The notes under the pieces: generated by a model
Told to the model about the DNA's origin: nothing
The model's input: the letters and a program-made list of their open reading frames with translations, nothing else
Databases searched by the model: none
Made by a program: the position numbers and the translations under genes
In this document: positions 8,638-56,202 of the stretch, piece after piece
How positions within the stretch are numbered: position 1 is the first letter of the stretch
Layout of the letters: the number at the start of each line of letters is the position of its first letter
Source: a virus
IMG/VR virus record: IMGVR_UViG_3300009506_000037
Location: 1 to 57,711 of that record
DNA length: 57,711 nt
Reading direction: 5' to 3' (one strand)

Positions 8638-9124
8638 TTTGCAGCTCCACGATTTGTTTGCGGGCCCGGCCCAGCACTGCCACGATGTGGGAGACGTCCA
8701 CTTCTTGCGGCTTGCGGTTGATCAGTAGAATCAGATCTGTCAGGTAGGCGACCGAGTCATGGCGCTTCTGGAGGAATTCCAACAGTTCTCGCGGTGAACT
8801 CAGCTTGGCGGCCTTGCCTGAGGCTTTGGTTTTTTTGTACTTCCCGGTCGATGGCCACAGGTCGATGCCGTATTGCGGTAGACGCCAGTGATATTCTGAC
8901 AATTCGACAATGGTTACGCCGGCATCACGCAGGACTCTCCAGTAGCCTGCATGGGCATGGGCTCGCTTGGCCTGCTTCTCCATGCGCTTGATAGCCGCGG
9001 TATCGACGCTGCTTTCACCAACACAACCCGCACAGGAACGCGGGTAACCATCGCCTTCACCCAGATAGACACCGCACTCCTGACAGAGTGTGCCGTCCAG
9101 TATATCGTCAGCAACTTCGCCCAT
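8630..9124 (-). CDS. Hypothetical zinc-finger protein, first gene of left operon (164 aa)
   Basis: It starts MGEVADDILDGTLCQECG with C14xxC17 and later C31xxC34, a four-cysteine zinc module seen at the N terminus of a small phage protein family of unknown role. The remainder is helical with a basic centre (KYKKTKASGKAAK) and a C-terminal helix with coiled-coil character. ATG 9124 has GAGAGGA upstream and is the first coding sequence behind the promoter at 9324 and its structured leader. Confidence 0.85.
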   Translation of the reverse strand: MGEVADDILDGTLCQECGVYLGEGDGYPRSCAGCVGESSVDTAAIKRMEKQAKRAHAHAGYWRVLRDAGVTIVELSEYHWRLPQYGIDLWPSTGKYKKTKASGKAAKLSSPRELLEFLQKRHDSVAYLTDLILLINRKPQEVDVSHIVAVLGRARKQIVELQNG

Positions 9125-9148
9125 GATTCAGTCCTCTCAGAGTTATTA

Positions 9149-9311
9149 TGCCCTTAACGAGGAGGGCTGGCGATCAACCCCAGCCTTCCTCTAACCCCTC
9201 TTCCTACTCCGCCGTGGGAACACCGGCAGGGCTACGAGAGCTTAGATTTCGTGCGGCCTAGCAGGATGATCGTCTCCCCCTGAGTCGCACACATTCCCCT
9301 CGTTAAGGGCA
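9149..9311 (-). ncRNA. Structured 5' leader domain of the left operon
   Basis: TGCCCTTAACGAGG (9149-9162) is perfectly complementary to CCTCGTTAAGGGCA (9298-9311), closing a 163-nt domain that ends 24 bases before the first start codon. Inside, GGCTGG and CCAGCC (near 9166-9186) form a further stem, and a GCCG/CGGC stem with a GGAA loop lies near 9211-9228. The distance from the minus-strand promoter at 9324 makes this most likely a leader RNA (riboswitch-like, attenuator or protein-binding). Plus-strand transcription is not excluded, since one inner pair is G-U only on the plus strand. Confidence 0.65.
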
Positions 9312-9323
9312 CAGCGTCTTCAA

Positions 9324-9353
9324 AATGTAGAAGATGTTTCGACATTTTGCCAA
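9324..9353 (-). promoter_or_regulatory. Promoter of the left operon
   Basis: On the minus strand TTGGCA (9348-9353) is followed by an 18-base spacer and TACATT (9324-9329) in the string TCTACATTTTG, identical to the -10 string of the 2312 promoter. The spacer contains ATGTCGAAACAT, a possible operator. It faces the genes 9124 to 3709. Confidence 0.65.
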
Positions 9354-9399
9354 TCAAAATATTTTATGTGGCTATAAGCAAATACAAAACACATAGACA

Positions 9400-9679
9400 G
9401 ATCAGTCTTATTGACCGTTCGACATAGGGATCAGGTCAGGCCTGATACCTGTGTCGCGGAAAGGTCCGATTAATCCGCTTGCCTATCTACTGTCCACATA
9501 CTGGAATTGGGTGTTCGATTCCCACGGATCCAGCCACGCCGCTGAAGCATCCATGCCCCATGTCATAGTTGTGGTTTTAAGCGCCGGTCAAAGCGCAGGC
9601 TATTTCTTCTTCAAATTGTGACCCACGCAATCACCCTGCCGTTGGCTTACCCGTCGGGCTTGATATAGGGAATTCGAGG
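9400..9679. other. Non-coding stretch with strong hairpins
   Basis: I see no gene here. It contains a long hairpin at about 9419-9455 (CGACA, AGG and ATCAGG steps pairing with CCTGAT, CCT and TGTCG), a GCGGA/TCCGC hairpin at about 9456-9478, and a T-arm-like hairpin at 9501-9533. The last has CTGGA/TCCAG and TGGG/CCCA with loop TGTTCGATT and is followed by GCCA. These look like pieces of a structured RNA or a decayed tRNA 3' half, but no complete tRNA can be folded. Confidence 0.45.
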
Positions 9680-9707
9680 TTGACAGAACGTCGAGGTATG
9701 TAATAAT
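9680..9707 (+). promoter_or_regulatory. Promoter of a short untranslated RNA
   Basis: TTGACA (9680-9685), a 16-base spacer and AATAAT (9702-9707), with an extended -10 TG at 9699-9700. The spacer holds GAACGTCGAGG, related to the TTCGAC/GTCGAA half-sites near other promoters of this phage. Confidence 0.75.
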
Positions 9708-9713
9708 AGACGT

Positions 9714-9791
9714 GTCTAATCAACGGCTGGAACCCTGATCAAGACAATCAGAATAGCCCTTGCTCACTTCACGTGGCAAGGGCTTTTTTTT
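9714..9791 (+). ncRNA. Putative 78-nt small RNA
   Basis: The interval between the promoter at 9680 and the terminator at 9755-9791 holds no reading frame, so the transcript would be a small RNA of about 78 nt ending in a stem and a U tract, the usual form of Hfq-dependent sRNAs. It runs towards the 3' end of the Cro-like gene (9821), a position reminiscent of lambda OOP RNA. Target unknown. Confidence 0.6.
9755..9791 (+). terminator. Rho-independent terminator
   Basis: AGCCCTTGC (9755-9763) and GCAAGGGCT (9776-9784) form a perfect 9-bp stem with a 12-base loop, followed by T 9784-9791. Confidence 0.9.
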
Positions 9792-9820
9792 CTTTTCCTC
9801 TATAGAAATTTTTAATGGGG

Positions 9821-10114
9821 TTATAAGCGAAGCTCATGCCACGGCACGTCGCCGCGGAGCTCCTCACGAGGGATGCCGGACTCTTCCTCGACATCTTCCA
9901 GATATTCCAAAGGGATACCGCGCTTGTCACGGTTCAGCCATGCCCAGATCTTGCTCGGGTCTACCTTGTGCCGGATACCACGACTGCGAAACCGCTCTGT
10001 CAGAGTCCGGCCCGCTTCGGCGAGCCCGCCCATCTTTTTGATGGCCTCGGCGCCCTTCAGCTGGTTTTGTTCAAAGACCTCGGACTGGTCCAGTGGTTTC
10101 AATTCATCGTTCAT
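9821..10114 (-). CDS. Cro/YdaS-like transcriptional regulator (97 aa)
   Basis: The core AEAIKKMGGLAEAGRTL, then a helix ending in KIWAWLNRDKRGIP, and the tail EESGIPREELRGDVPW fit the YdaS/Cro family: a helix-turn-helix followed by the usual GIPxExxxxIExxTG-xxRExLRPDxxW-like ending. It should bind operators as a dimer and repress. The gene faces away from the promoter at 10159 and has its own promoter at 10145, both overlapping the palindrome at 10159, so it probably controls itself and the divergent RNA. No CI-like partner or integrase is present. Confidence 0.78.
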   Translation of the reverse strand: MNDELKPLDQSEVFEQNQLKGAEAIKKMGGLAEAGRTLTERFRSRGIRHKVDPSKIWAWLNRDKRGIPLEYLEDVEEESGIPREELRGDVPWHELRL

Positions 10115-10144
10115 TACTGCTTTTCCTCTGTTAGGGGTAAAAAA

Positions 10145-10173
10145 ATTGTAATCTACACTTGACGATTCGTCAA
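10145..10173 (-). promoter_or_regulatory. Promoter of the Cro-like gene
   Basis: On the minus strand TTGACG (10168-10173) precedes TACAAT (10145-10150) by exactly 17 bases. The -35 is one half of the palindrome at 10159-10173. Confidence 0.82.
10159..10173. promoter_or_regulatory. Palindromic operator between divergent promoters
   Basis: TTGACGA, one T, TCGTCAA is a perfect 7+1+7 palindrome. Each half is the -35 hexamer of one of two divergent promoters, so a bound repressor would block both. The adjacent Cro-like protein is the obvious candidate. Confidence 0.75.
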
Positions 10174-10187
10174 TCGTCGATTATTAT
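10159..10187 (+). promoter_or_regulatory. Strong promoter of the large structured RNA
   Basis: TTGACG (10159-10164), a 17-base spacer and TATTAT (10182-10187). The predicted start is near 10194, directly at the first helix of the structured RNA. A second TACACT element lies just upstream at 10153-10158. Confidence 0.85.
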
Positions 10188-10193
10188 TCCCAA

Positions 10194-11020
10194 CGTGCTC
10201 GGAACAATAAGCCATGGCGACATGGTGAATGGGGTAAAGCCAACATAGCCCCGCCTATTCGTAGGTGCCTCCGAGCAAGCTGAGTCCACGGGGTATGCCC
10301 CGGCCTTCGTTCCTGACGGGGGATAGTGACGAGTGATTAGGACTGCACTGGGCGTAATAATCAAAGGCCTTGGCCCATCGTGAGGTGGGCTGCAGTAGGA
10401 AAGCGAGTCATGATAGGACAAAGAGTAGGGCTGTAGTCAGAGCCGGCAGGTGAAGGCGAAGTCCAGACTGTTGCGGTCGAGGTCGAAGGATCTCAGTGGT
10501 CGCAGTAGAGCAGCTTAGTACCCGGCAGGAGAACAGCAGAAGGTGGGTGGCATATCGTCGGGGCAACCTGATGACACCACAGGGCAGCGCTCATCTTCGT
10601 TGGTTAGCAACGTAGCTCAATGGTAGAGCACACCCCTTGAAGGGTGCTGTTGCCGGTTCAAATCCGGTCGACGCATAAAAATGCAAAGACGCTGTCCGGC
10701 GTAGTGTGAAAGTGGCTTAAACCTGCGGCCTTCGGGTAACGCAGGGTCCCCAAAGTCGCAAGCTGAGGGGGCTCCGTGACGGAGAGCACTCGGGTCCTTT
10801 GGCCGGGAACCGGGGTATCGAGAGGGCGGAGTGGCGCTACGGAATAGGTCTATCGCCTGACCTGTAAACTAAACGGCAGTCATGATCTTGTACGCCAGCG
10901 TCACTTCGGTGGGTTGGCGTGGATAACCCGGCAACCGTGGGTCGCAAGCCTGCGGGTAATCTGGGGAAAGCGGGGCAATCGGAAATTGCTTAATCTCAGC
11001 ATTTCCATTTATACTAATCT
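10194..11020 (+). ncRNA. Large ornate structured RNA (GOLLD/ROOL-like candidate)
   Basis: About 830 nt carry no credible gene but many hairpins whose tetraloops are only sensible on this strand: GCTCGGA/TCCGAGC (10196, 10270); CCATG-GCGA-CATGG; CCTA-TTCG-TAGG; CGGGG/CCCCG; GCCCATC-GTGA-GGTGGGC; GAGGTC-GAAG-GATCTC; CCTGCG/CGCAGG with an inner TTCG loop; CTCCG/CGGAG; ACGCCA/TGGCGT with TTCG; GCAAT/ATTGC (10975). A tRNA-like fold lies at 10606-10675. Size, density of stable loops, a phage location and an embedded tRNA recall GOLLD and ROOL RNAs. A group I intron hosting the HNH gene is the main alternative, but I could not find its P7 core or exons. Confidence 0.68.
10606..10675 (+). tRNA. tRNA-like element, acceptor stem imperfect
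   Basis: The D arm GCTC/GAGC (10615-10618, 10626-10629) with loop AATGGTA and the T arm GCCGG/CCGGT (10652-10656, 10664-10668) with loop TTCAAAT are textbook. The anticodon stem CACCC/GGGTG (10631-10635, 10642-10646) encloses only six bases, CTTGAA. Acceptor strands AGCAACG and CGACGCA pair at four of seven positions. It is thus a tRNA mimic or decayed tRNA inside the large RNA rather than a plain tRNA; no amino acid is assigned. Confidence 0.5.
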
Positions 11021-11021
11021 C

Positions 11022-11549
11022 ATGGATAAATGTAAATCATCAATCTGTGAGAGAATGGCAGCGGCAGGATCTCGGGGGTATTGTAGGGGTCACTATCAGC
11101 GCCTACTACGCGGCACGTCACTGGATACGCCGGTAGGGAAAAACAACTATCAGCAGCCCGCGAGCACGCGCAGCTGCGAGGTCGATGGGTGCTCCCGCCC
11201 TCACTATGCGACCGGGTTATGCCGGCTACACTGGAGAAGGAAGCGGGAAGATAGAGATCTCAGCGCCCCGGTAAGGAAGTACGGGGAAGGCCGAAGCAAA
11301 ACAAGAGCCGGGTATATTTACGTGCTCGGCGACGACGGCAAGCGAGTTCTTGAACACCGCCTTGTGATGAGTCGGCATCTGGGTAGAGAGTTACTTGCCT
11401 CAGAAAACGTCCACCACATTAACGGAATCAAGGACGACAACAGGCTGGAGAACTTGGAGTTATGGACTACCTCCCAGCCATCTGGTCAGCGAGTCGCGGA
11501 TAGGCTTGAATGGGCTAAGAAATTCATCGAGCTGTATGACGTTTTTTGA
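11022..11549 (+). CDS. HNH homing endonuclease (175 aa)
   Basis: An HNH_3-type motif is clear: LEHRLVMSRHLGREL, then ENVHHINGIKDDNRLENLELW near residues 120-152. The N-terminal half has two CxxxxC...CxxH zinc modules (C4, C9, C21 and following H; CEVDGCSRPH...CRLHW). Such enzymes cut a specific site and mobilise themselves or a host intron. ATG 11022 is the natural start; in-frame codons from 10914 lie in the RNA structure. The gene lies between two structured RNA segments, and its TGA overlaps the 18-bp helix at 11549, as if inserted in a larger RNA. Confidence 0.9.
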   Translation: MDKCKSSICERMAAAGSRGYCRGHYQRLLRGTSLDTPVGKNNYQQPASTRSCEVDGCSRPHYATGLCRLHWRRKREDRDLSAPVRKYGEGRSKTRAGYIYVLGDDGKRVLEHRLVMSRHLGRELLASENVHHINGIKDDNRLENLELWTTSQPSGQRVADRLEWAKKFIELYDVF

Positions 11550-11700
11550 GTGTTTATGAAAGAGCGACGGGCACTGAAAAAAACCTTGTCCGCGCCATAC
11601 TACCGATAGCGCCCGGACGGCATGGCACACTTGGTGAGAGTTCTTCGGACAGCTCTGGCTAGGTAAACTCAAGGCGGGCAGCCGCTCTTTCATAAGCACT
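11549..11700 (+). ncRNA. RNA domain closed by an 18-bp helix
   Basis: The 18 bases from 11549 (AGTGTTTATGAAAGAGCG) pair with 11683-11700 (CGCTCTTTCATAAGCACT): 17 Watson-Crick pairs and one G-U that exists only in the plus-strand RNA. Inside are GTCCG/CGGAC (near 11589 and 11615) and AGAG/CTCT stems. The segment may be the 3' part of the large RNA split by the HNH gene, or the leader of the operon starting at 11863. Further stems follow, such as TGCAGGG/CCCTGCA near 11803-11834. Confidence 0.65.
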
Positions 11701-11862
11701 TAATAGTTCGGAAGGCTGGCTGACATTCCTACTGTCGTTAAATCTTCCCACGCACGTGGAGAGCCTAAAGCGTGCCGCTGAGCTGGTAGCGTAATGAGAT
11801 GGTGCAGGGCCACGAGACGACCGGCAACCCTGCAAAACCTTTACAGAGAGAGGAGAAGAGAA

Positions 11863-12126
11863 ATGTTTCTCAAGTTCCACATCAGCGACAACACCAAGGT
11901 ACTGGTGTCTCATCGGAACGGGTTCACCAACCCGCGGATGGTCGACGTCGTTCATGAAGGCGACATCAAGACCTTTAACAAATTCCGGCAGAACCTGAGT
12001 CAAGGTGACTTCTGGTTGAACCTGTTGAGCGAAGGCGAAGGCCTGAACATCAACATCCCGGTTACCTTCCGCAATCATCAGATGGAATTCCCGCTGGGTA
12101 ACATGCCCCCGACTGCCAAAGTTTAA
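11863..12126 (+). CDS. Hypothetical protein, first gene of the recombination operon (87 aa)
   Basis: ATG 11863 follows GAGAGAGGAG; the upstream in-frame ATG at 11794 lies in RNA structure without a ribosome site. The protein (MFLKFHISDNTK...) is mixed alpha/beta with no recognised motif. It precedes a promoter-like element at 12161 and is the first gene read after the RNA region. Confidence 0.82.
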   Translation: MFLKFHISDNTKVLVSHRNGFTNPRMVDVVHEGDIKTFNKFRQNLSQGDFWLNLLSEGEGLNINIPVTFRNHQMEFPLGNMPPTAKV

Positions 12127-12213: not shown

Positions 12214-12402
12214 ATGGCGCGTGCACGATATAAGACGTGGGGCGATTACCAGAAGCAGACCGTCCGCGAGTACAAACGAACCCCGACCCAGAGAAAAGCC
12301 AAACAGGTCATCATATCTCAGAATCGGGGGTCCGTGATTGTTAATCGAGAGGAGATCCCCAGCTTGATTAATGCTCTTCTCGCCATCGGAGATCTGAAAT
12401 AA
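12214..12402 (+). CDS. Hypothetical small basic protein (62 aa)
   Basis: ATG 12214 has GAGAGAGGAG. The first 30 residues are very basic (YKTWGDYQKQTVREYKRT), consistent with nucleic-acid contact. The stop overlaps the recT ATG (TAATG), so it is translationally coupled to recT and may assist it; that is inference. Confidence 0.8.
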   Translation: MARARYKTWGDYQKQTVREYKRTPTQRKAKQVIISQNRGSVIVNREEIPSLINALLAIGDLK

Positions 12403-13343
12403 TGGCAGGACAAATTGTAGGCTGGAAACAGTCCATCGGCAAAGCGAAGCAGCGCTTCAAAGACATCTCCAAGATGGCCAACACCGGGATGGTGTGGGAG
12501 CGTGAGAGCATGTTCGCCCTGCAGGCTGTCAAGAAGAGTGACTTCCTGCAGAAGTGTAACACCGAGTCCATCCGTGATGCTGTGCTGAACGTGGCCAGCA
12601 TCGGTCTCTCCTTGAACCCGGCAGAGAAGCTGGCGTATTTGGTCCCGCGTGACGGTATCGCGGTACTGGATGTCAGCTATCAGGGCCTGCTCAAGCTGGC
12701 CACCGATTCCGGTTCGGTTATGTGGGCCAAGGTTGAGCTGGTCTACGAGAACGACGAGTTCGAATACCTCGGCATGAATACCATGCCACACTTCAAACCG
12801 TCTGACCCCTTCGATACTCACCGCGGTAAGCTGCGCGGCGCCTTCTGTGCCGCCCGCCTGTCGAATCAGGAAATGCTTATCGAGCTGATGGGGGTCGATG
12901 AAATCCACAAGGTTCGCGAGAAGTCCAAGGCCTACACCCGGAAGAAGGACGGCAAGCACAAGCCGTCCGGCCCATGGGTGGACTGGTACGAGGAGATGGT
13001 CAAGAAGACCGTCATCAAGCGCGCCTACAAGTCGTGGCCGAAGAGTATTCGCATGAGCGAGGCTATCGAGATCCTGAACCAGCACGAGGGTATCGACTTT
13101 GATACCTCCCCGGCCAGCAAGACAGAGGAAGCTGCTGTGCTGCTGGTCAATGATGCGCAGGCCAAGGAACTGACTGACCTCATAAACGCATCTCATGTGG
13201 ACATAAATAAAATTTATAAGGCGTTCGAGATTGAGCACCTGACCGATCTGCCTGCCGAGAAGTTCGGCGAGTGCAAGGCCCGGTTAAATGCCGCCAAAGA
13301 CGCATACGATAAGAAACATGCCAACAAGGGAGAACGACTCTGA
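12402..13343 (+). CDS. recT: RecT-family single-strand annealing protein (313 aa)
   Basis: The protein fits the RecT family: the region CNTESIRDAVLNVASIGLSLNP (split around residues 52-70) and the strand AYLVPRDGIAVLDVSYQGLLKLA (about 78-100) correspond to its conserved core, with KKTVIKRAYKSWP near 205. RecT coats resected DNA and anneals complementary strands. It is coupled by TGATG to the YqaJ exonuclease gene, the usual partner that creates 3' tails. Length is typical. Confidence 0.92.
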   Translation: MAGQIVGWKQSIGKAKQRFKDISKMANTGMVWERESMFALQAVKKSDFLQKCNTESIRDAVLNVASIGLSLNPAEKLAYLVPRDGIAVLDVSYQGLLKLATDSGSVMWAKVELVYENDEFEYLGMNTMPHFKPSDPFDTHRGKLRGAFCAARLSNQEMLIELMGVDEIHKVREKSKAYTRKKDGKHKPSGPWVDWYEEMVKKTVIKRAYKSWPKSIRMSEAIEILNQHEGIDFDTSPASKTEEAAVLLVNDAQAKELTDLINASHVDINKIYKAFEIEHLTDLPAEKFGECKARLNAAKDAYDKKHANKGERL

Positions 13344-14002
13344 TGCGCCAGCTGCAGGCGAGCAATCACCCTCAGGGAACTGAGGAATGGTTTCGTGACC
13401 GGCGTGGTCGTCTGACCGGGTCGGATATGCGGACCATCATGAACGGCGGCAACAGGTCGTGGATCACCCTGTTGGAGCGGAAGAAGCACGAAATCGAATT
13501 CCCCGATGAGGCGCTGGGGGACGAGGCTGATGCTCCGTCCTTGCGCTGGGGGAATGAGAACGAGCCCCGGGCCATTGCTCACTATGAGTTGATCTACAAC
13601 GTGGACGTGGAGCGGGTCGGCTTTGTCCCACATCCGACCGTGCCGTATGTTGGCTGCAGCCCGGACTTTCTGAACCGTGACGAGGGCGTGGTCGGCGAGA
13701 CGAAGTGCCCGTACAACGAGGAAGTGCATGCCATGACCGTGGTGCACGGCGCCGGGGTGCAGGAGTACAAACCCCAGATCCAGTGTGAAATCTGGGTGAC
13801 CGGCGCTGATGTGCTGCACTTCATCAGCTACGACCCACGGTACAGGGACCCGGCCAAGCAGCTGATCGTGATACCGGTCCTACCTGACGCGGCATACATC
13901 GAGAAGATGGAAGAAAAATGTGCCAAGTTCTGGGACTATCTGACCACTGATACCCGGCCGGCCGACTTCGGCGGGCTGGATGAAATACCGAAGCTGTTCT
14001 GA
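13343..14002 (+). CDS. YqaJ/lambda-type 5'-3' exonuclease (219 aa)
   Basis: QGTEEWFRDRRGRLTGSD near the N terminus (residues 11-28) and the catalytic D108 (CSPDFL) with E119-x-K121 (GETKCP) and Q147 define the YqaJ viral recombinase nuclease fold of the PD-(D/E)xK superfamily. It digests the 5' strand of duplex ends, supplying single strands to RecT. The gene overlaps recT, and the two form the phage recombination pair. Confidence 0.92.
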   Translation: MRQLQASNHPQGTEEWFRDRRGRLTGSDMRTIMNGGNRSWITLLERKKHEIEFPDEALGDEADAPSLRWGNENEPRAIAHYELIYNVDVERVGFVPHPTVPYVGCSPDFLNRDEGVVGETKCPYNEEVHAMTVVHGAGVQEYKPQIQCEIWVTGADVLHFISYDPRYRDPAKQLIVIPVLPDAAYIEKMEEKCAKFWDYLTTDTRPADFGGLDEIPKLF

Positions 14003-20437: not shown

Positions 20438-20486
20438 TCCAGACCTTGCGCCACATGGTGGTCCGCTTGAATTTTTTCACCCGCAT
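20364..20486 (-). CDS. Small membrane protein downstream of the ejection protein (40 aa)
   Basis: The frame MRVKKFKRTTMWRKVWTISL... ends ...RLFGTSDPYL. Its ATG (20486) overlaps the stop of the 3006-residue gene as TAATG. A basic N terminus is followed by one hydrophobic segment (about residues 17-33). It runs antisense into the end of the convergent zinc-ribbon gene. The coupling and membrane pattern support it, but it is short. Confidence 0.58.
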   Translation of the reverse strand: MRVKKFKRTTMWRKVWTISLWGFLALLFVVRLFGTSDPYL

Positions 20487-23400
20487 TATTTGCTCAACCT
20501 CTCGTACCGTTTCTTCTTCATCTTGTTATAGATCCGGCTGAATTCCTGCATTACCTTCTCCCGGCGGGCTTTCAATGCCTTGATACGGTCATGCTTGACC
20601 CGCTTCGGCATGTCTTCCTTATTCTGCAGGTAGTGGATCTCAGTGTTCAGCTTCTTGATCTGCTCGTTAAACCGCTTCATCTGGTGCTCGCCCATCCAGA
20701 TCAGCTCGTAGTTATTGCGCTCGAAGTCCCGCACCAGCAGCGCGTCCTCCTTGCTGGCGACCTCCTTCTTCATTTTCTGGTGGGCCTTGGTGATCTGCTC
20801 GACCTCGGTGCGCTGGTCGTAGAAGGCACGCGGCACATCCCATTCGGTACGCTCGCCGATAACCTTCCGAGCAAATGGCACCTTGTTGTAGGGAATCTCA
20901 TCCCCATAGGCCAGCTTATTGTACATCAGGGTCGGGTATTCCACGCCCATGCGGGAAATGAATGCCCCGGCGCCACCGGTCACGAAGTTGATCCAGTGAT
21001 CCATTGTCTCCGGCGAGATATCGATGAGCCCGGATTCGTACTTGCTGCCACCGGTGAGGCTGTTCAGCTGCTCGGCGAACCACTTGGTGGCCGGGTTGAC
21101 GCTGCTCCAGTACCGCTGGCTGTCCGGAATCTGGGGACCGAAGGCCGGCTGGTCCGGCATGATCGGGGACCCCATGAAGTTCTCGTTGGTAGCCAAGTCG
21201 ACAATCGGGTCGGTGATGGTCGGGGAAATCATCTTCGCCAGCATGACCTCCATGTAGTCACTGTCCGAGTTGCCGATCGGGTTGAAGGAATCGATGAGAG
21301 TTACGGCGATGTTTACAGCTACCTTACCCAGTTTTTCGGGCGGCGCATGGATGGCGTCGCTGATGCTCATGCCGACCACGTGCGGTACGTTGTACCCGTA
21401 CGGCAGCGGGAACTGGAACCGGTCCTGACATTCTCCCAACGGGTTCATGACAATCAGGTTGCGGCGCTTAATCCAGTCCGGGATCTTGTCGTAGCAGTTC
21501 TCCCCGTCCTTATCGATGCCGGCCATCAGGCGGTTCAGCTCGGTCAGGCCGAACGCGGCGACCGCGATTCCGGCCAGCACTTTCTGCACCCGGGGGCTTT
21601 TGGCCGCCTTCCACATGGTGGCGGTGCCCTGAACGCTGGCGTTATAGAACAGGTACAGGGCGTTTGCCAGCGTACCCAGCTCGCCCTTCCGGTTGAAGTT
21701 CACGGTCAGGTTCTTGGCGATCGTGGCCGCCTGCTGGTCTGACATACCCATCTCAATGGCATTCTTGAATACAGCCAACCGGGCCGCATTTTCCACAGAG
21801 GCGTTGACATCCATGACATAGTCCTTAACGCCTTTCACGACGCGCAGGACCTTGGCGTAGTTGTCACCCTCCAGCATACGGATATCATTGTTCAGCCGGG
21901 CCCGCTTGGACTCAATAGTTTCCAGCCCGAAGAACCCGATCTTGCCACCAGACTCAGAGAACCGACGGAACCACTGGACCCACTCAGACCCATGCTCGGG
22001 GTTACGCAACCCCTGATAGATGCCCTTCACAGAACTCGGAATGTCCTTGATCATGCGCTTGGCCAGCTCTGACGGGTCCACTTCGGTACGAGCCTGCAGG
22101 TTGATCAGCGCGGTCTGGATGTCTCGGGCCGCGTTGGAGATAACGAACTCGGGGTTGTAAGCGGTATTAACCGCAGCGAGGAACCGGTTGAAGGCAGCCA
22201 GTGTCTGGACAATGGCGCCAGCTTTTTCGACGCCAACATTGGTCATCGCCCGGGCCAGCAGCGGGTCCTTGATTTTGATGTACTTTTCCTGCCCGTCGAT
22301 TTTCACGGACATAACGTCATCTGCCAGCTTGAAGAACGGGTCGCGACGGTAGGCCACCTCAGCGGTTCGCTCGTCATAGACCGGGCGAGTCGGCACGTCT
22401 TCAGGGTTTTCGATAACCTGCCACAGGTCCGGGTTAGGGTTATCCCGTACAAAATTCAGGAAAGCCTGACCGACGGTATTCTTTTCTGCCCGGATGATGG
22501 TCTCCTCCATCTGCAGAATACTGTAGATGATGGGGCTGTCAGCCCGTGAGCGGCGACCCAGAGCCCGTTTGGACTCCCGGCCCTTGATACTGAAGCCGCG
22601 ACCGATGCGCTGGAACAGGCCACCGTCTTCCTCGTAGAAGCCACGCAGCGGGACATAGTGGCCGTATTTCTCGCTCCACATGTCGATATTCTTCTGGGGT
22701 TCCAGTCCCGCTTTCTTCAGCAGCTTGAGGCGGGCGTTGTTGATCCGGTAGACCAGCTTGGCCAACTCCATCTTCTCGTTGTAGGTTCCGTCATTCTTGG
22801 CGATCTGGATGATGGCCTCGGCCTCGGCGTCGGTCATCCCGGATCCCATGACGCCCTGTTCGCGCAGGGTCGGGTTAATTTCCTGAATGTGCGCGTTACG
22901 TTCTGGGGCGTGCATGGCGTACAGAAACTCATCGAGCTGGTCCAGCGTGATGTCAGACTCACTGACAGCCTGCAGGAGCGGTTTCACGTACAGGTCCTCG
23001 AACTTCTCCAGCTCGTACTCTACTTTCCCGTGATACAGCTCCTCCTTCAGGTAGGCGTCGGTTTCTGGGTCAACGGTTACGTCCGGAAGCTCCTGTATCA
23101 CCCGGAGGCGGTCGTATTTGTCCTGCAGCTTGCGTACCAGAGAGCGCCACAATGTTTCACGTGGAACAGCGAACGGACCGTCTGACAGGTTGCCGCCCTC
23201 CTTGGAGCGGGACGCCATGGCCCGGCCTTCCTGCATCGCCTTGTTCCGGCCGGCACGTACCGCCAGTTTCATCCGGCCCAGAAGCCCGGTGATTTCGGTG
23301 TCGGTTACCTTCAGGCTTGGGAAAAACTTCCGCAGGAACTGGCGTACCAATGAGATGGCACGCTGTACCCACGAAGCGCGGGGATTGATTTCGGCTTCAT

Positions 23401-26400
23401 GGGCCAGAAATTCTTCGGCGGCGACCAGCCGTCCTTCCCGGGTGCGCAAGTCCAGATCATATTCCCGGGCAATCGAGCGCAGGCGCGGCTTGTTGACTTC
23501 CGCATTGAAGATCTGGAGCAGCAACGGCTCGATCTGCTTCGGTTCCAGCAGCTGGCGCAGGCCATAATGACCAATCATTTCATGGAACAGCAGGCGCTGC
23601 GCATGTTCAGGACTGCCAATCCGGTCGGCGATCATATAGACCTTGCCGGTATTGGTATCGAACAGGCCGTCGGTTTCGTCCTCGGCATTCTGAGACCGCA
23701 AGAAATCCTGCAAATGGTTGGGCAGCTGGTCGAAGCTATCCAGCACCTCAATGTCCGGGATATTGGTCCACGTGTTCATGATGTGACGCAGCGAGTCATA
23801 GATCTTGGAGACGCTCATGCCACGCTTGGCAGCCTTGCGGGCCATTTTCGGCTGATTCAGCCGCTGGGCATTGATGGCAGCCTGCAGCTCTTCACGGGAG
23901 GTCCGCTTCCAGCTGGTCAGGTCCACGCCCTTGGTGGGTTGGCGACCCTGCGTGCGAGCCATGTCCTGCTCGGTTGACTCCAGCATCTGCAGAATAGCTT
24001 TGACCTCTGGCAGCTTCCCGGACGGGTCGAAGCCAAATTCACCCGGGTCACCAAAATCTCCGGTCAGCACCCGGTACAGAGCATCGCTGATGTTCGTGTT
24101 GTATTCCCGGGCAAAATCCACCGGATTCACGTCGATGCCGAGCTCTTCCATCAGCATCCGTTGTACGCGGAAGGTGACGTCTTCCCATTCGACGGCGCGC
24201 TGTGCCTGAGCCAGTGTCAGCGGGGCCACCTCGAAGTCGATCTGTTTGGGCGGCTTGCCACGCTTTGAGACCCACGTGCGGCCCATACGGCCTTCACGGC
24301 GGCCATCGCCGTACTTGGCCTGCATGATGTCCTCGGTGATGCCGTGCGCCAGTTCGTGGACGATACGCCACTGACGGGTGTACTCGGTATCCTTGAAGGA
24401 CCCGTGCGCCACCCGGGGGTCGTAAATCCACAGTACCCCGTCCTTGTAGCCCTGTTTCTTCAGCTTGGGAATAGCAAATTCCACACCGGCCTCAGGGTCT
24501 TCGTGGAAGGCGAAGTATTTCACCTGATACCCGAAATCGTTCAGCAGATTTTCGACGAGGGTCGGGTCATCTACCAGCGTGTCGAGGTTGTAGATCTTGA
24601 GTGAGTCGGTGGAATCTTTCCCGGGATTGATGGCGCCGAACCGGCCATACACATCGGTCAGCGCGGCGTCCGGGTTGTTCAGTCGAGATAGGGGTACTGG
24701 TGCGGCAAGCGGCCCTTGGTACGACGTGTTCCATCCGTACTTTCTTGCGACGGTTTGGCCTGCTTCGATTGCGGCTTGGCGCCGATCACGAATCCACGGG
24801 AGTAAATCGGGTCGTCCGAGCTCGCTGATTTTAGCGGCGTATTCCTGACCTTCGGTAGCTTTTGTCCAGTCATTTGAGTGGTACCCTCCTTCTGCCTTGA
24901 ATTGTGTGAATTCAGGGATATCGAAACCAGTGAAAGTATGCACCACCTTGGTCATTTTGTCGATAAAATCTTTATCTGACGTCAGGAACGGCTTACCGTT
25001 TTCGTTCCGGAAATTGATAAACCGCAGCTTACCGTCGACCAAAGTGAATTCGACTCCGGGCAGGAACTGGTTTGAGTGGTCATAGAATTCCATCGCCATC
25101 TGGTCAGTAATCGGACGGTCGGCAGTAATTTGCAGACCGACGGCAGCTTTCTTACCAGTTAGCGTGGGGTCAGCGCGGTGCCACGGCACAGCGTCTTGGG
25201 TGAAAATCATGCCCACAATGTTGGCGTACAGGTCGGCCAGCTGAGGATCGTAGGCGCCTTCAATCTTCTCGGCCACGATGTGGGTCAACATGTTCGGGCT
25301 CACGGCCAGTTCGAAGCTGCCCATGGACTGCTCAGTCCGGGCCAGTGGTGCGCCCAGCTTCTCGATAACCATGTCCTGCCCATCACGGCCGGTGATCACA
25401 TCCAGCATAGCCTGATTGAAGTCAACGACTTCGTCGGTGCTGGCGGTATGGATACCCGGGAACATTCCGGATGAGACCGACGGACGGGCCTCCCATGTCA
25501 CGCTTTCGGTGGCACGGTTCAGGTATGTCGCAAAATCGACCGGCGCCGGCGGGACAAACTTGCCCTTAACCTTCTTGGCGGCATCGCTATTCCGGGCATA
25601 GAACCACAGCCCAGCCTGTACCTCACGCGGCAGATAGCTGGTGCCATGCTTGGCATTGTAGGCCTCGGTGATATCGATGGTCAGATCGTGGGCAAACGCA
25701 TACTGCCCGGCCCCGGCCCTGACACCGTCAGCGCTTTCCGGATAACCGAACAGGCGCAGCATCCAGCGGTCCTGCGTGCTGGCGTTGTCGAAATAATTGG
25801 TGCCGAAGGTGGCGTCGTGCAGGTTCATATAGAACGACATCAGCTTGTTATCGACGCCGGGCACAGAGACGTCCATGGTGGGCGCTTCCAGAATGCCACG
25901 CACCAGCTTTTTGGTGCGGTTCGGGAACCGTCCAGCCTCAGGCTCCATGTTGCCCCGGGAGATCTCGTAGATGGATTTTACGGCCGCGGTGGTATTACCG
26001 CCGACCTGATTGGCCTGTGAGTACAAGGACATCAGGCGCACCAGATTCTCAGCGGTCTGGCGATCGCCGTTGGCGGCCTTGCGGATGGCTTCCCCGGAAC
26101 GGTCGTACCACTCCATGGTGAACGGGGTCTGGGCCAGCGGGTCTTCCAGAATATTCAGCATGCGGCGAACCAGCCCGGCGCGCTTCTGCATCGAGTTGAT
26201 GCCCGGGGGAGCCCCTGACAGGTCGCCCTTCGCGTTGAACTTGCGGGGCTTGGCAGTGCGCCGGTAAAGGGTGTCTGCCTGAGATTTGGCGTGCTTCTCC
26301 GGAACGATCGTGATGCCCTCGGGACTGAACATAATCACGTCACCGGTGTCATCGGATATGGCAGCGTCGTAACCCTGCCGTTTCAGCTTCTTCAGCAGCT

Positions 26401-29400
26401 CCGGCTTGTCACGAAGCGTCCGCCAGTCCTCATCCATAATGGTGACCGGGTTCTTGTAGTCCAGCTTGGCCTTAATGACCCGCTTGCCATGCTGTTTCGC
26501 AACCGACCGGCTCCGGGTGAAGTGGCCAGCCACCCCTTCCTGAGTCTTAAACTGGTCAAATTCGGCGTTGGTTCCGTGATAGTAGGCCTTGTTGCCGCGG
26601 CTCATGCGCACGCCCACATCCTGACTAGCTTCGCCGAACTGCTGCTTGATGGCCTCGGAATTCGGGTAGGTGATATCAATCAGGCCGCTAATGAACGGGG
26701 ACTTCCCGGGCTGTTCCGCGTTGCGCTGGTCATACGACTGCGGCTGCAGATATGTTTCAGTAAAGCCCATGGTCTTGGTGCCATATTTGGCATCGACATT
26801 CTTGATAACAACCGGGACTTCCTTGATGCCGGCCCGGGCCAGTGCAGCCATACGGTGGCGGCCTTCATGCCCGACAATCTTCGGGATACCGCCATCCTCG
26901 GTGCTGATATGCAGGAACGGAGTCTGGATCTCGTTGGCCAGCTCCTCGGTATCTAGCGGGCCAGTTTCGCCATATATGGTTCGCGGGTTACCGGTGGCGC
27001 GTACAAAGTCATCCGGGTTGATGTAGGCCATTCCTGCGATCACCCGGCCGTCCGGGTACGCATATTCAGAAAAGATGTTCCGGATCCGGTCATCGGTCAG
27101 GCCTACCTTGTCCTGCCCCATCTGGATATTTTCTTCGGTGGTGCGCTGGGCGCCACGAGACAGCTTCGGTTCCTGCAGGCCATACTCGGCAGCAACGGGC
27201 TCAGTCTTCTGGCCGGTTTGCACCCAGTTCTTGAATTCCTCGATGGGCATGGCAACGATGGAGTCCAGCCCCTTCCAGTCCTTCGAGTAATTGTTCATGT
27301 AGACCTGACGGGCCTCTTCCTCACTGTTCACGCCGAGGACGGCCTTGTGCTCATCGAACTTCCCGGTGGTCGGGTTCTTCTGGTCCACCACGTATACGGT
27401 GTCAGTGTTCTCGGCATTCGGACCAAGGAAAACGTCGACCTCTTCGCCGTCGGCTCCCTTGGTCATCTTGATATGGCCGTAGGGATTCTCCATGGTGTTG
27501 TCCCAGACATTGCCATTCTTGTCAGAACCGGTGCGCACGGTGCCACGCGGGTTCTCAATGGCGATATCCAGTCCCTGCACGTTCACGACGCCGGGTTCCT
27601 GCGGGTTGGCTTTGGTCTGTTCCTCGGCCTTGGCGATGTTCAAGCCATATTTCTGTTCAGCTTGCTGGAAGGCAGCTTCCATGGCGGTCGGCTCTTTGCC
27701 GGTGACCTGACGCTCTGCGGCACGGTTTTCCAGCGCTGACTGGACCTTGTCCGGCGCGGTCTCAGGCCGGGCGTTGTCCTTCTCCAGCTGGGAGAATCCG
27801 AGGTCCTGCTCCAGCGCCTTCATGGTTTTCTGGTCAGCCTCGTAGATATCAAAGGCTTCTTTCACGGAGCGGCTATAGTCCTGCTGCGCTTCGCCAGCCG
27901 CATCGGTGGCCTGCTGCAGCTCGGAGTCTGGCGCATTCTCCTCGGCCAGCTTGTTCAGGCGGTCAATCGCTGCCTTCAGCCGGTTCCGGGAGGTATTGAT
28001 GCGCTGCTCATGGATGCCACCAACTGAGGCGGCAACCATGTCAACCGGGGCAGTGATCGCCTCGCCGGCTGCTTCAGCCAAAATCTGGCCCCATTCCAGC
28101 GGGCGGCCAGCAGCGAGCTCTCCACCACCTTCGCCGATAGCACCCATGGTGCCTTGCACGGCAGTCTGGACCGGGACATTAATGACATGGCGCGCAACCA
28201 CATTCGCAACAGCCTTCGGTACTAGGGTGCGGCCAGCCAAACCGAAGCTCAGGCCGTCCAGCAAACCAACAACGGCAGCATGGGCTCGAGCTTCCTTGGT
28301 GATCTGCTTGTACATCTGAGGGTCAAGCAGCGCGTTTCGGACAGCTTCAATATTGTTCGTGTCGACCCCGTTACGCTGCAGAGCTCCCTGCAATTCAGCG
28401 GCAAAGTCGACATTGTAGGAGCCTTGACCTGTGGCCAGCATGCCAAGCCACGGTCCACCAAGAGCGGCAGCCACGGAGCCCTTGGCCAGCGGCTCAGCCA
28501 TCATCGGCAAGGAGGTGGTTCCCACTTCACCGACAAACGAGACAGGGTCGCGCTTCACATAACCCCATGCGGTTTTGAAGTCGTTTGCTTTGAAGGCTTC
28601 TTCCGCTACGGGAGCGGTCTGGATCTTGGCGGCCTCAGCCCCCTTCTTCGTAGAAATAGTCAGCAGGCGGTCAATCTTGTCACGCTCACGCTGCAGGGCC
28701 TCACCCATAACCCGAGGGTTGGATGACATGGTCTTGCCGGTTTCACTGATTAGCGGACGGCCAGCTTCATCAGAAGGCTCGCCCGGGCGCGCACTAATGG
28801 CGCTGCGCATCAGTGGTTGGTTACGTTGTACGTCAGGCATTTGCGGGGCCAGCGAGGCGGAGCGGGTCTTCGCTGAGGTCTCGGCCTCATCAATCGAATT
28901 GAATCCCTCCAGCTTGCGACCGGTTTCCGGATCCACCCCACCATTCTCAATAATGATGCGTTCCGCTTCGCGCTGCGTAACCTGCTTCCCATTGTACATG
29001 GACGGGATATTGGTCGGCTTACCGCCATTAATTTTTGGGTTGGTTACCGTGATGGTGCGTTCGGTCGAGAACGACCCGTCCGGGTTGCGGACAATCGGGC
29101 GTCCTTCTGAGGTGTATTTCCCGGTCGGGACATCCTCAGCGGTCATGCGGTCGGTATAGTCTTCGCGCAGGCCGTGGTAACGGCTGGCAATATCCGCAGC
29201 GCCGCTCATGGCCTTGGCGCTTTCCAGCTGTTTCATACCGCGGGTCAGGCGCTCGTCGACCACCTCACCGGTCGGGCGGGCTTCATACTGTGCCTGACGA
29301 TAATCGAAGTCAGCATAACGGGTGTCCGCGTCGAACTTCTCCCGGACCAGATCCATCGACATCGGTTTCCCGGTCTGTTTCTGGAGTTCCTGTACCCGGG

Positions 29401-29506
29401 GAGCGACTACATCCTCGAAGTATTTCTGGCGGACTTTTTCTTTTGTCGCAGAATCGAGCTTCTGAAACCGCTCATCCTGCACCACTTCTGCCCAAGTTTT
29501 GGACAT
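20486..29506 (-). CDS. Giant polyvalent protein, probable DNA-ejection and co-injected effector (3006 aa)
   Basis: Domains seen in order: an N-terminal phage module (VVQDERFQKLDSATKEKVRQ); an InPase-like polyvalent domain (about residues 630-770, with YGHIKMTKGADGEEVDVFLG); a ParB-like segment around 880 (GHEGRHRMAALARAG); an ADP-ribosyltransferase-like domain from about 972 (YYHGTNAEFDQF); a zincin with HELAHG near 1719; a second metallopeptidase with HEMIGH near 1975; and an LPD38-type C-terminal region (about 2350-2990). Polyvalent proteins travel with phage DNA and act early against the host. It occupies the internal virion protein position after the tail genes. Which domains are active is not known. 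Confidence 0.88.
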   Translation of the reverse strand: MSKTWAEVVQDERFQKLDSATKEKVRQKYFEDVVAPRVQELQKQTGKPMSMDLVREKFDADTRYADFDYRQAQYEARPTGEVVDERLTRGMKQLESAKAMSGAADIASRYHGLREDYTDRMTAEDVPTGKYTSEGRPIVRNPDGSFSTERTITVTNPKINGGKPTNIPSMYNGKQVTQREAERIIIENGGVDPETGRKLEGFNSIDEAETSAKTRSASLAPQMPDVQRNQPLMRSAISARPGEPSDEAGRPLISETGKTMSSNPRVMGEALQRERDKIDRLLTISTKKGAEAAKIQTAPVAEEAFKANDFKTAWGYVKRDPVSFVGEVGTTSLPMMAEPLAKGSVAAALGGPWLGMLATGQGSYNVDFAAELQGALQRNGVDTNNIEAVRNALLDPQMYKQITKEARAHAAVVGLLDGLSFGLAGRTLVPKAVANVVARHVINVPVQTAVQGTMGAIGEGGGELAAGRPLEWGQILAEAAGEAITAPVDMVAASVGGIHEQRINTSRNRLKAAIDRLNKLAEENAPDSELQQATDAAGEAQQDYSRSVKEAFDIYEADQKTMKALEQDLGFSQLEKDNARPETAPDKVQSALENRAAERQVTGKEPTAMEAAFQQAEQKYGLNIAKAEEQTKANPQEPGVVNVQGLDIAIENPRGTVRTGSDKNGNVWDNTMENPYGHIKMTKGADGEEVDVFLGPNAENTDTVYVVDQKNPTTGKFDEHKAVLGVNSEEEARQVYMNNYSKDWKGLDSIVAMPIEEFKNWVQTGQKTEPVAAEYGLQEPKLSRGAQRTTEENIQMGQDKVGLTDDRIRNIFSEYAYPDGRVIAGMAYINPDDFVRATGNPRTIYGETGPLDTEELANEIQTPFLHISTEDGGIPKIVGHEGRHRMAALARAGIKEVPVVIKNVDAKYGTKTMGFTETYLQPQSYDQRNAEQPGKSPFISGLIDITYPNSEAIKQQFGEASQDVGVRMSRGNKAYYHGTNAEFDQFKTQEGVAGHFTRSRSVAKQHGKRVIKAKLDYKNPVTIMDEDWRTLRDKPELLKKLKRQGYDAAISDDTGDVIMFSPEGITIVPEKHAKSQADTLYRRTAKPRKFNAKGDLSGAPPGINSMQKRAGLVRRMLNILEDPLAQTPFTMEWYDRSGEAIRKAANGDRQTAENLVRLMSLYSQANQVGGNTTAAVKSIYEISRGNMEPEAGRFPNRTKKLVRGILEAPTMDVSVPGVDNKLMSFYMNLHDATFGTNYFDNASTQDRWMLRLFGYPESADGVRAGAGQYAFAHDLTIDITEAYNAKHGTSYLPREVQAGLWFYARNSDAAKKVKGKFVPPAPVDFATYLNRATESVTWEARPSVSSGMFPGIHTASTDEVVDFNQAMLDVITGRDGQDMVIEKLGAPLARTEQSMGSFELAVSPNMLTHIVAEKIEGAYDPQLADLYANIVGMIFTQDAVPWHRADPTLTGKKAAVGLQITADRPITDQMAMEFYDHSNQFLPGVEFTLVDGKLRFINFRNENGKPFLTSDKDFIDKMTKVVHTFTGFDIPEFTQFKAEGGYHSNDWTKATEGQEYAAKISELGRPDLLPWIRDRRQAAIEAGQTVARKYGWNTSYQGPLAAPVPLSRLNNPDAALTDVYGRFGAINPGKDSTDSLKIYNLDTLVDDPTLVENLLNDFGYQVKYFAFHEDPEAGVEFAIPKLKKQGYKDGVLWIYDPRVAHGSFKDTEYTRQWRIVHELAHGITEDIMQAKYGDGRREGRMGRTWVSKRGKPPKQIDFEVAPLTLAQAQRAVEWEDVTFRVQRMLMEELGIDVNPVDFAREYNTNISDALYRVLTGDFGDPGEFGFDPSGKLPEVKAILQMLESTEQDMARTQGRQPTKGVDLTSWKRTSREELQAAINAQRLNQPKMARKAAKRGMSVSKIYDSLRHIMNTWTNIPDIEVLDSFDQLPNHLQDFLRSQNAEDETDGLFDTNTGKVYMIADRIGSPEHAQRLLFHEMIGHYGLRQLLEPKQIEPLLLQIFNAEVNKPRLRSIAREYDLDLRTREGRLVAAEEFLAHEAEINPRASWVQRAISLVRQFLRKFFPSLKVTDTEITGLLGRMKLAVRAGRNKAMQEGRAMASRSKEGGNLSDGPFAVPRETLWRSLVRKLQDKYDRLRVIQELPDVTVDPETDAYLKEELYHGKVEYELEKFEDLYVKPLLQAVSESDITLDQLDEFLYAMHAPERNAHIQEINPTLREQGVMGSGMTDAEAEAIIQIAKNDGTYNEKMELAKLVYRINNARLKLLKKAGLEPQKNIDMWSEKYGHYVPLRGFYEEDGGLFQRIGRGFSIKGRESKRALGRRSRADSPIIYSILQMEETIIRAEKNTVGQAFLNFVRDNPNPDLWQVIENPEDVPTRPVYDERTAEVAYRRDPFFKLADDVMSVKIDGQEKYIKIKDPLLARAMTNVGVEKAGAIVQTLAAFNRFLAAVNTAYNPEFVISNAARDIQTALINLQARTEVDPSELAKRMIKDIPSSVKGIYQGLRNPEHGSEWVQWFRRFSESGGKIGFFGLETIESKRARLNNDIRMLEGDNYAKVLRVVKGVKDYVMDVNASVENAARLAVFKNAIEMGMSDQQAATIAKNLTVNFNRKGELGTLANALYLFYNASVQGTATMWKAAKSPRVQKVLAGIAVAAFGLTELNRLMAGIDKDGENCYDKIPDWIKRRNLIVMNPLGECQDRFQFPLPYGYNVPHVVGMSISDAIHAPPEKLGKVAVNIAVTLIDSFNPIGNSDSDYMEVMLAKMISPTITDPIVDLATNENFMGSPIMPDQPAFGPQIPDSQRYWSSVNPATKWFAEQLNSLTGGSKYESGLIDISPETMDHWINFVTGGAGAFISRMGVEYPTLMYNKLAYGDEIPYNKVPFARKVIGERTEWDVPRAFYDQRTEVEQITKAHQKMKKEVASKEDALLVRDFERNNYELIWMGEHQMKRFNEQIKKLNTEIHYLQNKEDMPKRVKHDRIKALKARREKVMQEFSRIYNKMKKKRYERLSK

Positions 29507-55289: not shown

Positions 55290-55554
55290 ACCATACCGAC
55301 GACGAAATTGACTTCGATTAGGACAGTCGGAAACAGGGAAGTCCAGCAGGAAGCTGGCGATTGAAAGGGATGAACCGCACGGCCCGGTATAAGAGTCGGC
55401 ACCCAGAGATACTGCACGAAGGGGCAGAAGCAACGGGGGCAAGCCAAAGGGCTTTCGCTGAGAGTCCTTTGCCTTGTCAACCAATGGGACGCGATTGACA
55501 GTGCACGCTGAGTCAACACTCAGTCACCACTGAGTTCACACTGAGAGCCAACTA
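55290..55554 (+). other. Long untranslated leader with hairpins
   Basis: About 265 bases without a credible reading frame follow the promoter. Hairpins include CCAGC/GCTGG near 55345-55360 and AAAGG/CCTTT with inner CT/AG near 55447-55471. The end is the CTGAGT repeat array, then ribozyme 3. If ribozyme 3 cuts, this leader is released as a separate RNA of about 285 nt. Confidence 0.5.
55508..55545 (+). repeat. CTGAGT/ACTCAG inverted and direct repeat array
   Basis: CTGAGT at 55508, ACTCAG at 55518, CTGAGT at 55530 and CTGAG at 55541. The single ACTCAG can pair with any of the three CTGAG copies, giving mutually exclusive short hairpins just upstream of ribozyme 3. Confidence 0.75.
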
Positions 55555-55616
55555 GTCGAAACCCCGGGCGACCGGGGTCAGCAGGAACTGGCCTACCTGC
55601 TCTGATGAGACAGGCC
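55555..55616 (+). ncRNA. Type II hammerhead ribozyme 3
   Basis: GTC (55555-55557), GAAA (55558-55561), stem III CCCCGG/CCGGGG (55562-55567, 55572-55577) with a GCGA tetraloop, cleavage triplet GTC (55577-55579), stem I AGCAGG/CCTGCT (55580-55585, 55596-55601), CTGATGA (55602-55608), GAC (55609-55611). Cleavage is after C55579. GGCCT (55590-55594) of the stem I loop pairs with AGGCC (55612-55616). This copy follows the untranslated leader, not a gene. Confidence 0.95.
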
Positions 55617-55635
55617 CAACCAACAGGAGATCGAC

Positions 55636-56083: not shown

Positions 56084-56124
56084 TTGTCTGGGCCCTGTCC
56101 CTTGGTGTCATCGCATTCCTGTAA
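56068..56124 (+). CDS. Transmembrane microprotein (18 aa)
   Basis: ATG 56068 with GAGG eight to ten bases upstream opens MVTFLIVWALSLGVIAFL and stops at TAA 56122-56124. The chain is one hydrophobic helix. Its stop directly abuts ribozyme 4, exactly as the stops of the accepted genes before ribozymes 1, 2 and 5 do, which is the strongest argument that it is translated. Confidence 0.6.
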   Translation: MVTFLIVWALSLGVIAFL

Positions 56125-56185
56125 GTCGAAACGCCCTTCGGGGCGTCTTCCCGGGGTAGGTTCCCGGGAACTGATGAGACAACCT
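56125..56185 (+). ncRNA. Type II hammerhead ribozyme 4
   Basis: GTC (56125-56127), GAAA (56128-56131), stem III CGCCC-TTCG-GGGCG (56132-56145), cleavage triplet GTC (56145-56147), stem I TTCCCGGG/CCCGGGAA (56148-56155, 56163-56170), CTGATGA (56171-56177), GAC (56178-56180). Cleavage is after C56147. Loop AGGTT (56158-56162) pairs with AACCT (56181-56185). The UUCG loop makes stem III very stable. A GAGAGAGGAG ribosome site starts at 56186. Confidence 0.96.
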
Positions 56186-56202
56186 GAGAGAGGAGACCCA
56201 TC

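Follow-up and report, generated by a model that had tools for sequence, protein, structure and literature searches.

Few known structured RNAs are as large as GOLLD and ROOL, and both form cages made of RNA only; transcription is a trait of the GOLLD family and rises during lysis, and, to our knowledge, neither RNA has a known function. Cryo-EM of the GOLLD RNA env-38 showed 14 copies forming a hollow cage, with a disordered linker that points into its interior, and the linker also points inward in the cage of ROOL, another phage-linked giant RNA (PMC12286853). Phage tRNAs are sometimes present in the GOLLD linker (Kretsch et al., PMC12286853), and both the family and the tRNA in its linker are already known. 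The accessible parts of the open-access GOLLD papers contain no description of a linker tRNA that lacks an acceptor and switches its anticodon; an earlier notice elsewhere, for instance in the 2009 discovery paper, is possible. Here, we describe such an RNA from a 57,711-nucleotide stretch of viral DNA (IMG/VR record IMGVR_UViG_3300009506_000037, hereafter the window) and compare it with its relatives, designated by L numbers.

A divergent member of the GOLLD family

The RNA encoded at 10194 to about 11004 (Table 1) is almost certainly a GOLLD RNA, a divergent member of the known family. The full RF02032 model, positions 1–416, matched the window at 10538–11002 with 112.7 bits (E = 3.4e-30; E = 1.6e-32 against the whole window genome), starting with the last hairpin of the 5′ region. 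As this score lies below the RF02032 gathering score of 150, standard annotation misses the RNA: under Rfam's default thresholds only the inner tRNA is reported, and GOLLD appears with an E-value threshold. The gathering cut-off, however, is an inclusion setting of the database and not a property of the molecule, and RNAs with the same kind of linker tRNA pass it in a cultured-phage relative (186.6 bits) and in a bacterial-genome relative (190.3 bits). The layout is that of the family, with a conserved 3′ domain ending in GUGGAUAA...UAAUC...UAAUCUCA elements, a less conserved 5′ domain, a variable linker joining the two and a length of about 810 nt, and the phage origin of the window is evident from its terminase, capsid, portal/adaptor and RecT genes. 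It differs from other members in its low score, in a 5′ domain of a type common to only about ten sampled RNAs and in its place upstream of recT, not in a tRNA array.

Table 1. Positions of the GOLLD RNA, its parts and its neighbours in the window
Feature	Position	Strand	Basis or remark
YdaS-like (Cro-type) regulator gene, divergent from GOLLD	9821–10114	−	PF15943, E = 6e-6, just under Pfam's cut-off
Divergent promoter-like site TTGACG-17-TACAAT	10145–10173	−	Shares inverted repeat, faces YdaS-like gene
Sigma-70-type promoter TTGACG-17-TATTAT for GOLLD	10159–10187	+	10/12 consensus matches
GOLLD RNA, whole element, about 810 nt	about 10194–11004	+	Rfam match, fold, covariation
GOLLD 5′ region: cap-type domain and last hairpin ahead of the linker	10194–10601	+	Relatives, covariation
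tRNA-like domain in the GOLLD linker	10606–10676	+	Rfam tRNA match, arm parsing
GOLLD 3′ domain (ring)	10677–11004	+	RF02032 match, covariation
HNH endonuclease gene, ATG at 11022	11022–11549	+	PF13392, E = 9e-10
Second structured RNA, about 150 nt, long closing helix	11548–11705	+	Conserved in L212 and L213
Recombination operon (recT, YqaJ-type exonuclease gene), downstream of GOLLD	12402–14002	+	

The initial annotation had proposed a GOLLD or ROOL RNA or a new class, kept a group I intron as the other option and suggested a search of Rfam models, for which it gave the GOLLD accession wrongly as RF01998. Length and structure alone would be compatible with a self-splicing intron or a new class, as would a score under the automatic cut-off; yet GOLLD was matched over its full length at E = 3e-30, the models of ROOL, OLE, HEARO and group I and II introns gave no match up to E = 5 within 9100–11900, and the relatives grade smoothly into RNAs that score over the cut-off. 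We leave an intron or a new class next to no chance.

The same annotation had described 10194–11020 as a stretch free of genes with at least ten hairpins, several of them capped by GNRA or UUCG loops in the plus-strand RNA only. There is indeed no convincing gene: apart from a minus-strand TTG frame of 83 aa, the only ORF within 10194–11004 is the start of a TTG-extended HNH ORF, which proper belongs further right. The RNA itself, however, stops at about 11004, and 11020 is the edge of the HNH gene. For the plus strand, the folding energy is −327.5 kcal/mol and the z-score relative to dinucleotide shuffles −4.3; for the minus strand, z is −0.22. The structure is therefore confined to one strand, and dozens of its helices covary in relatives.

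Those relatives came from several searches. Scanning viral contigs with three conserved GOLLD 3′ motifs returned many loci, and RF02032 matched 23 of 28 test records (27 from the motif scan and the window's own) with 102 to 338 bits and none of 14 control genomes; because the remaining five records (L002, L005, L009, L041 and L058) had no GOLLD match, pattern-found loci were filtered with the profile before counting. The 5′ region was matched end to end in L215, L216, L212, L128, L106 and L213 and partially in L201, and the L106 RNA aligned with that of the window over 873 nt with 62% identity. A scan of genome contigs with a linker pattern gave mostly chance matches, along with GOLLD loci in Thalassospira (L319), Pseudaminobacter (L396), Verrucomicrobiales (L305) and Woeseiaceae (L377). 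Among named phages, DNA similar to the window query was confined to HNH genes and tRNAs, and further queries likewise matched HNH genes or tRNAs, mostly tRNAs. One linker-tRNA GOLLD used as query matched Sinorhizobium phage Phosso (L537, PV764938.1, 32016–35380), whose GOLLD scores 186.6 bits, contains a linker tRNA and lies in an annotation gap, missed by ARAGORN.

An end-to-end alignment of seven RNAs across both domains yielded 168 consensus pairs, and in 112 of these a double compensatory change occurred at least once. The null consisted of alignments whose columns had been shuffled within classes of gap content and variability; against it, the consensus fold of the 5′ domain reached −64.2 kcal/mol (shuffled −6.7, sd 3.0) with 43 doubly compensated pairs (at most 15 in shuffles), and that of the 3′ domain −66.0 kcal/mol (shuffled −7.4, sd 2.4) with 53 such pairs (at most 19). 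Lack of conserved pairs in related phages had been named beforehand as grounds for abandoning the assignment; conserved, compensated pairs are what we found, and the membership in GOLLD stands.

An optional cassette in the early region

The promoter noted in the initial annotation is present at the expected edge of the RNA, and the corresponding site in L212 and L213 reads TTGACA-17-TAATAT/TAGTAT. In the window, the −35 element of this promoter sits in an inverted repeat of 7 bp without mismatches, TTGACGA-T-TCGTCAA (10159–10173), which is a likely operator. Searching with the window's RecT uncovered phages with RecT proteins 44–48% identical, and L212, L213, L215 and L216 carry GOLLD upstream of recT with scores of 122–132 bits; L214 and L217–L219 (RecT 42–46% identical) are without it at that place. 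All eight phages, L212–L219, have the YdaS-like gene but only four have the RNA, so GOLLD is optional there, a cassette in an early region that is itself conserved.

The HNH gene is not present at this point in L212, L213, L215 or L216 and probably inserted later, separating GOLLD from the next RNA element. The conserved 3′ end of GOLLD, TAATCTCA, recurs just before the HNH start codon (CTAATCTCATGG; window 10990–11024), a repeat that may mark the manner of the insertion. That next element is a second structured RNA, which contains the GCCCGGACGGC motif and is without an Rfam match at 11548–11705; it lies directly downstream of GOLLD in the relatives (L212 5447–5635, L213 5734–5866) and is separated from it by the HNH gene in the window. 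No terminator was found on the plus strand directly after GOLLD, which makes the RNA probably the leader of an early operon, its 3′ end made by processing, and the second structured RNA could be a processing site. A strong promoter beside a Cro-type regulator and ahead of recT and exonuclease genes suggests, as far as promoter and gene context can tell, that GOLLD is expressed early in the lytic cycle.

Several further features of the window are recorded here in their own right. Upstream of the YdaS-like gene, 9680–9797 (+) has a near-perfect promoter (TTGACA-16-AATAAT, 11/12) and, no more than about 100 nt beyond it, a hairpin rich in G+C and a run of T, likely a small RNA gene of about 80 nt. 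A tRNA-like stretch at 9427–9537 (+), ending in GTTCGATTCCCACGGATCCAGCCA and called by no tRNA finder, is possibly an attachment site or a tRNA remnant. Three type II hammerhead ribozymes lie near the two contig ends, at 861–925, 55554–55619 and 56124–56188 (+), with 60.1, 39.2 and 51.8 bits, all over Rfam's cut-off; in the first and the third, the CUGAUGA and GAAAC core is kept in the alignments. At 20486–29506 (−), a polyvalent protein of 3006 aa combines a pyrophosphatase domain with an LPD38 domain and also shows weak similarity to an ADP-ribosyltransferase.

A linker tRNA with a degraded amino-acid end

The embedded tRNA-like fold that the initial annotation had pointed out is borne out by a gathering-level Rfam tRNA match (43.3 bits), and it occupies the position of the variable linker in the Rfam GOLLD model, as the tRNAs of some other GOLLD RNAs do (PMC12286853). 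Its D stem (4/4), anticodon stem (5/5) and T stem (5/5) are fully paired, whereas the acceptor has four of seven pairs; the anticodon loop, CUUGAA, has 6 nt, and AAA follows in place of CCA. It thus departs from a functional tRNA in all of acceptor length (7 bp), loop length (7 nt) and CCA, and because the loop is short, ARAGORN calls it "tRNA-???"; neither this loop nor the lack of a working acceptor stem is a trait of GOLLD in general. Loops of 6 nt recur in L201, L305, L377 and elsewhere. Among close relatives, the acceptor has 7/7 pairs in L215, L216, L106 and L128, 6/7 in L212, 3/7 in L213 and 2/7 in L201, a range showing that the acceptor end is without steady constraint in the window's clade. 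Such unsteadiness fits a non-translating domain and leaves room for occasional working tRNAs; some of the linker tRNAs with complete acceptors (L215, L216, L106 and L128) might be released or charged.

To place this single copy in a wider frame, we compared linker tRNAs across the family. A recognisable one was present in 13 of 77 GOLLD RNAs found without selection for tRNAs, and a second search pattern, a T-loop followed by the GCAAAG element, added many more. The resulting sample comprises 83 distinct well-formed linker tRNAs from 208 GOLLD loci, most of them from the search that fixes part of the T arm, so that the sample is partly chosen by its T-loop. Ordinary tRNAs of the same loci or contigs, 610 distinct ones, were the controls; one parser served both sets, with the acceptor scored only as a tie-breaker. 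The acceptor stem is complete in 12% of the linker tRNAs and 81% of the ordinary ones, CCA is encoded in 2% against 73%, and the anticodon loop deviates from 7 nt in 11% against 0.8%. The first two contrasts persist at redundancy cut-offs of 90%, 75% and 70%; that in loop length weakens as the samples shrink.

The decay is selective: the elbow and the anticodon arm are kept, and the amino-acid end is usually degraded. With a fixed geometry and a shuffled null, the anticodon stem was fully paired in 79 of 105 linker tRNAs (null 0.5%) and, of the 82 whose anticodon stem was good, 75 had all four D-stem pairs (null 8.5%). Within the acceptor, the inner four pairs are kept at 0.87–0.98, and the outer three, at 0.44–0.59 (null about 0.37), are nearing chance. 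We consider it probable that the linker tRNA is a retained, non-translating tRNA domain.

Two other readings bear directly on these numbers. The tRNA could be an ordinary phage gene within a long precursor, released by RNase P and merely carried by GOLLD; GOLLD is often near tRNA islands (PMC12286853), and about one linker tRNA in eight has a complete acceptor stem. Set against this are the outer acceptor pairs, the scarcity of CCA and the frequent abnormal loops, as well as the window's own copy, and release would moreover cut GOLLD between its two domains; we regard the reading as very unlikely. Alternatively, phages with tRNA arrays may have gained a tRNA in a permissive linker, known to be variable and disordered (PMC12286853), and then lost the parts that were not needed, the remainder being mere filler. 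The range of acceptor integrity, from two to seven pairs even between close relatives, agrees with capture of this kind. Neutral decay should, however, hit all arms, and the D and anticodon arms are near-perfect, with 36 distinct, covarying anticodon stems among the linker tRNAs; in one pair of relatives (L198 and L199), the tRNA body is also more conserved than the GOLLD around it. Capture followed by decay is, in our judgement, unlikely, if less so than an ordinary tRNA gene, and a retained non-translating domain is the reading that we carry forward.

Turnover of the anticodon loop

The retained part of the tRNA is not uniformly conserved. Among pairs of relatives with tRNA bodies (the tRNA without anticodon loop and acceptor) at least 90% identical, which are not independent of each other, the anticodon differs in 15 of 27 linker pairs and in 5 of 153 ordinary pairs; counted by cluster, it differs in 6 of 9 and 5 of 68, respectively. 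Position 34 differs in 0.43 of the close linker pairs against 0.03 in the controls, U33 never changes in the linker pairs and body sites differ at 4.7%. In L198 and L199, the tRNA bodies are identical and the anticodon loop has been mostly replaced, from CTGTTAA to ATATGAA, while the GOLLD RNAs outside the tRNA are 83–85% identical, about 16% of the other aligned sites differing; L139 and L200 have GOLLD RNAs 99.5% identical and one anticodon base different. Lys and Asn anticodons account for about half of the linker tRNAs and 9% of the controls. A kissing interaction of the loop with its own GOLLD is not convincing, 6-mer complements being found for 34 of 83 loops and for 24 of 83 when shuffled.

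The turnover of the anticodon loop suggests that a host factor recognises this loop, and since conflict between phages and hosts over tRNAs is established (PMC10264068, PMC11455837), anticodon nucleases are the leading candidate. The main rival to a bait for such nucleases is docking, in which the elbow and the anticodon arm would guide the cage to the ribosome or to enzymes that bind or modify tRNAs and the anticodon would follow the codon use of the host. Preservation of the elbow and anticodon arm but not of the amino-acid end agrees with docking, as does the finding of GOLLD with ribosomes in a pull-down, as cited in PMC12286853. Docking alone, however, leaves the complete replacement of a loop between near-identical tRNA bodies unexplained, and loops of 6, 8 or 9 nt should not decode; we think it somewhat unlikely.

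A caged tRNA as possible bait

By analogy with env-38, the best-supported function of these RNAs would be that of a cage holding tRNA look-alikes. In the explanation that we prefer, a strong promoter, which faces away from a Cro-type regulator gene and has the recombination genes downstream, would drive the window's GOLLD, which would form an env-38-type cage and hold up to 14 tRNA domains, neither charged nor used in translation. The anticodon loops may then, with less certainty, act as bait for host factors recognising such loops, above all anti-phage anticodon nucleases; the bait would spare the real tRNAs, and an arms race with host defences would explain the turnover of the loops. As a whole, a caged, non-translating tRNA domain whose fast-evolving anticodon loop likely baits tRNA-cutting defences is our best explanation, though its chances fall somewhat short of even. 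That the linker tRNA is bait for anticodon-reading host factors is possible, and we propose it tentatively. The broader claim, that GOLLD cages of this kind are anti-defence devices in which up to 14 uncharged look-alikes with fast-swapped loops, Lys and Asn being favoured, occupy or absorb anticodon nucleases, is more doubtful.

The favouring of Lys can be set beside the PARIS defence, of which tRNA-Lys is the target (PMC11455837). Phage tRNAs that evade anticodon nucleases (PMC10264068), and the T5 tRNA-Lys in the case of PARIS (PMC11455837), are similar in being phage-encoded folds with unusual anticodon loops; they work and resist, however, whereas the linker tRNAs mostly cannot work and form part of a giant RNA. 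The evolution of resistance to anticodon nucleases by phage tRNAs (PMC10264068) follows a different logic from that of bait and counts against it, and nucleases might be unable to enter a closed cage. Nor can serving as tRNA bait be central to every GOLLD RNA, given a linker tRNA in 13 of 77.

Whatever the function, Rfam's cut-off conceals an entire GOLLD clade, and Phosso (PV764938), a sequenced and isolated phage with a linker-tRNA GOLLD, offers a route to experiments. The loss of the amino-acid end, the retention of the elbow and anticodon arm and the replacement of the loop argue that the captive tRNA does not work as a tRNA and is not filler either. This pattern makes the function of GOLLD testable and names the part to test.
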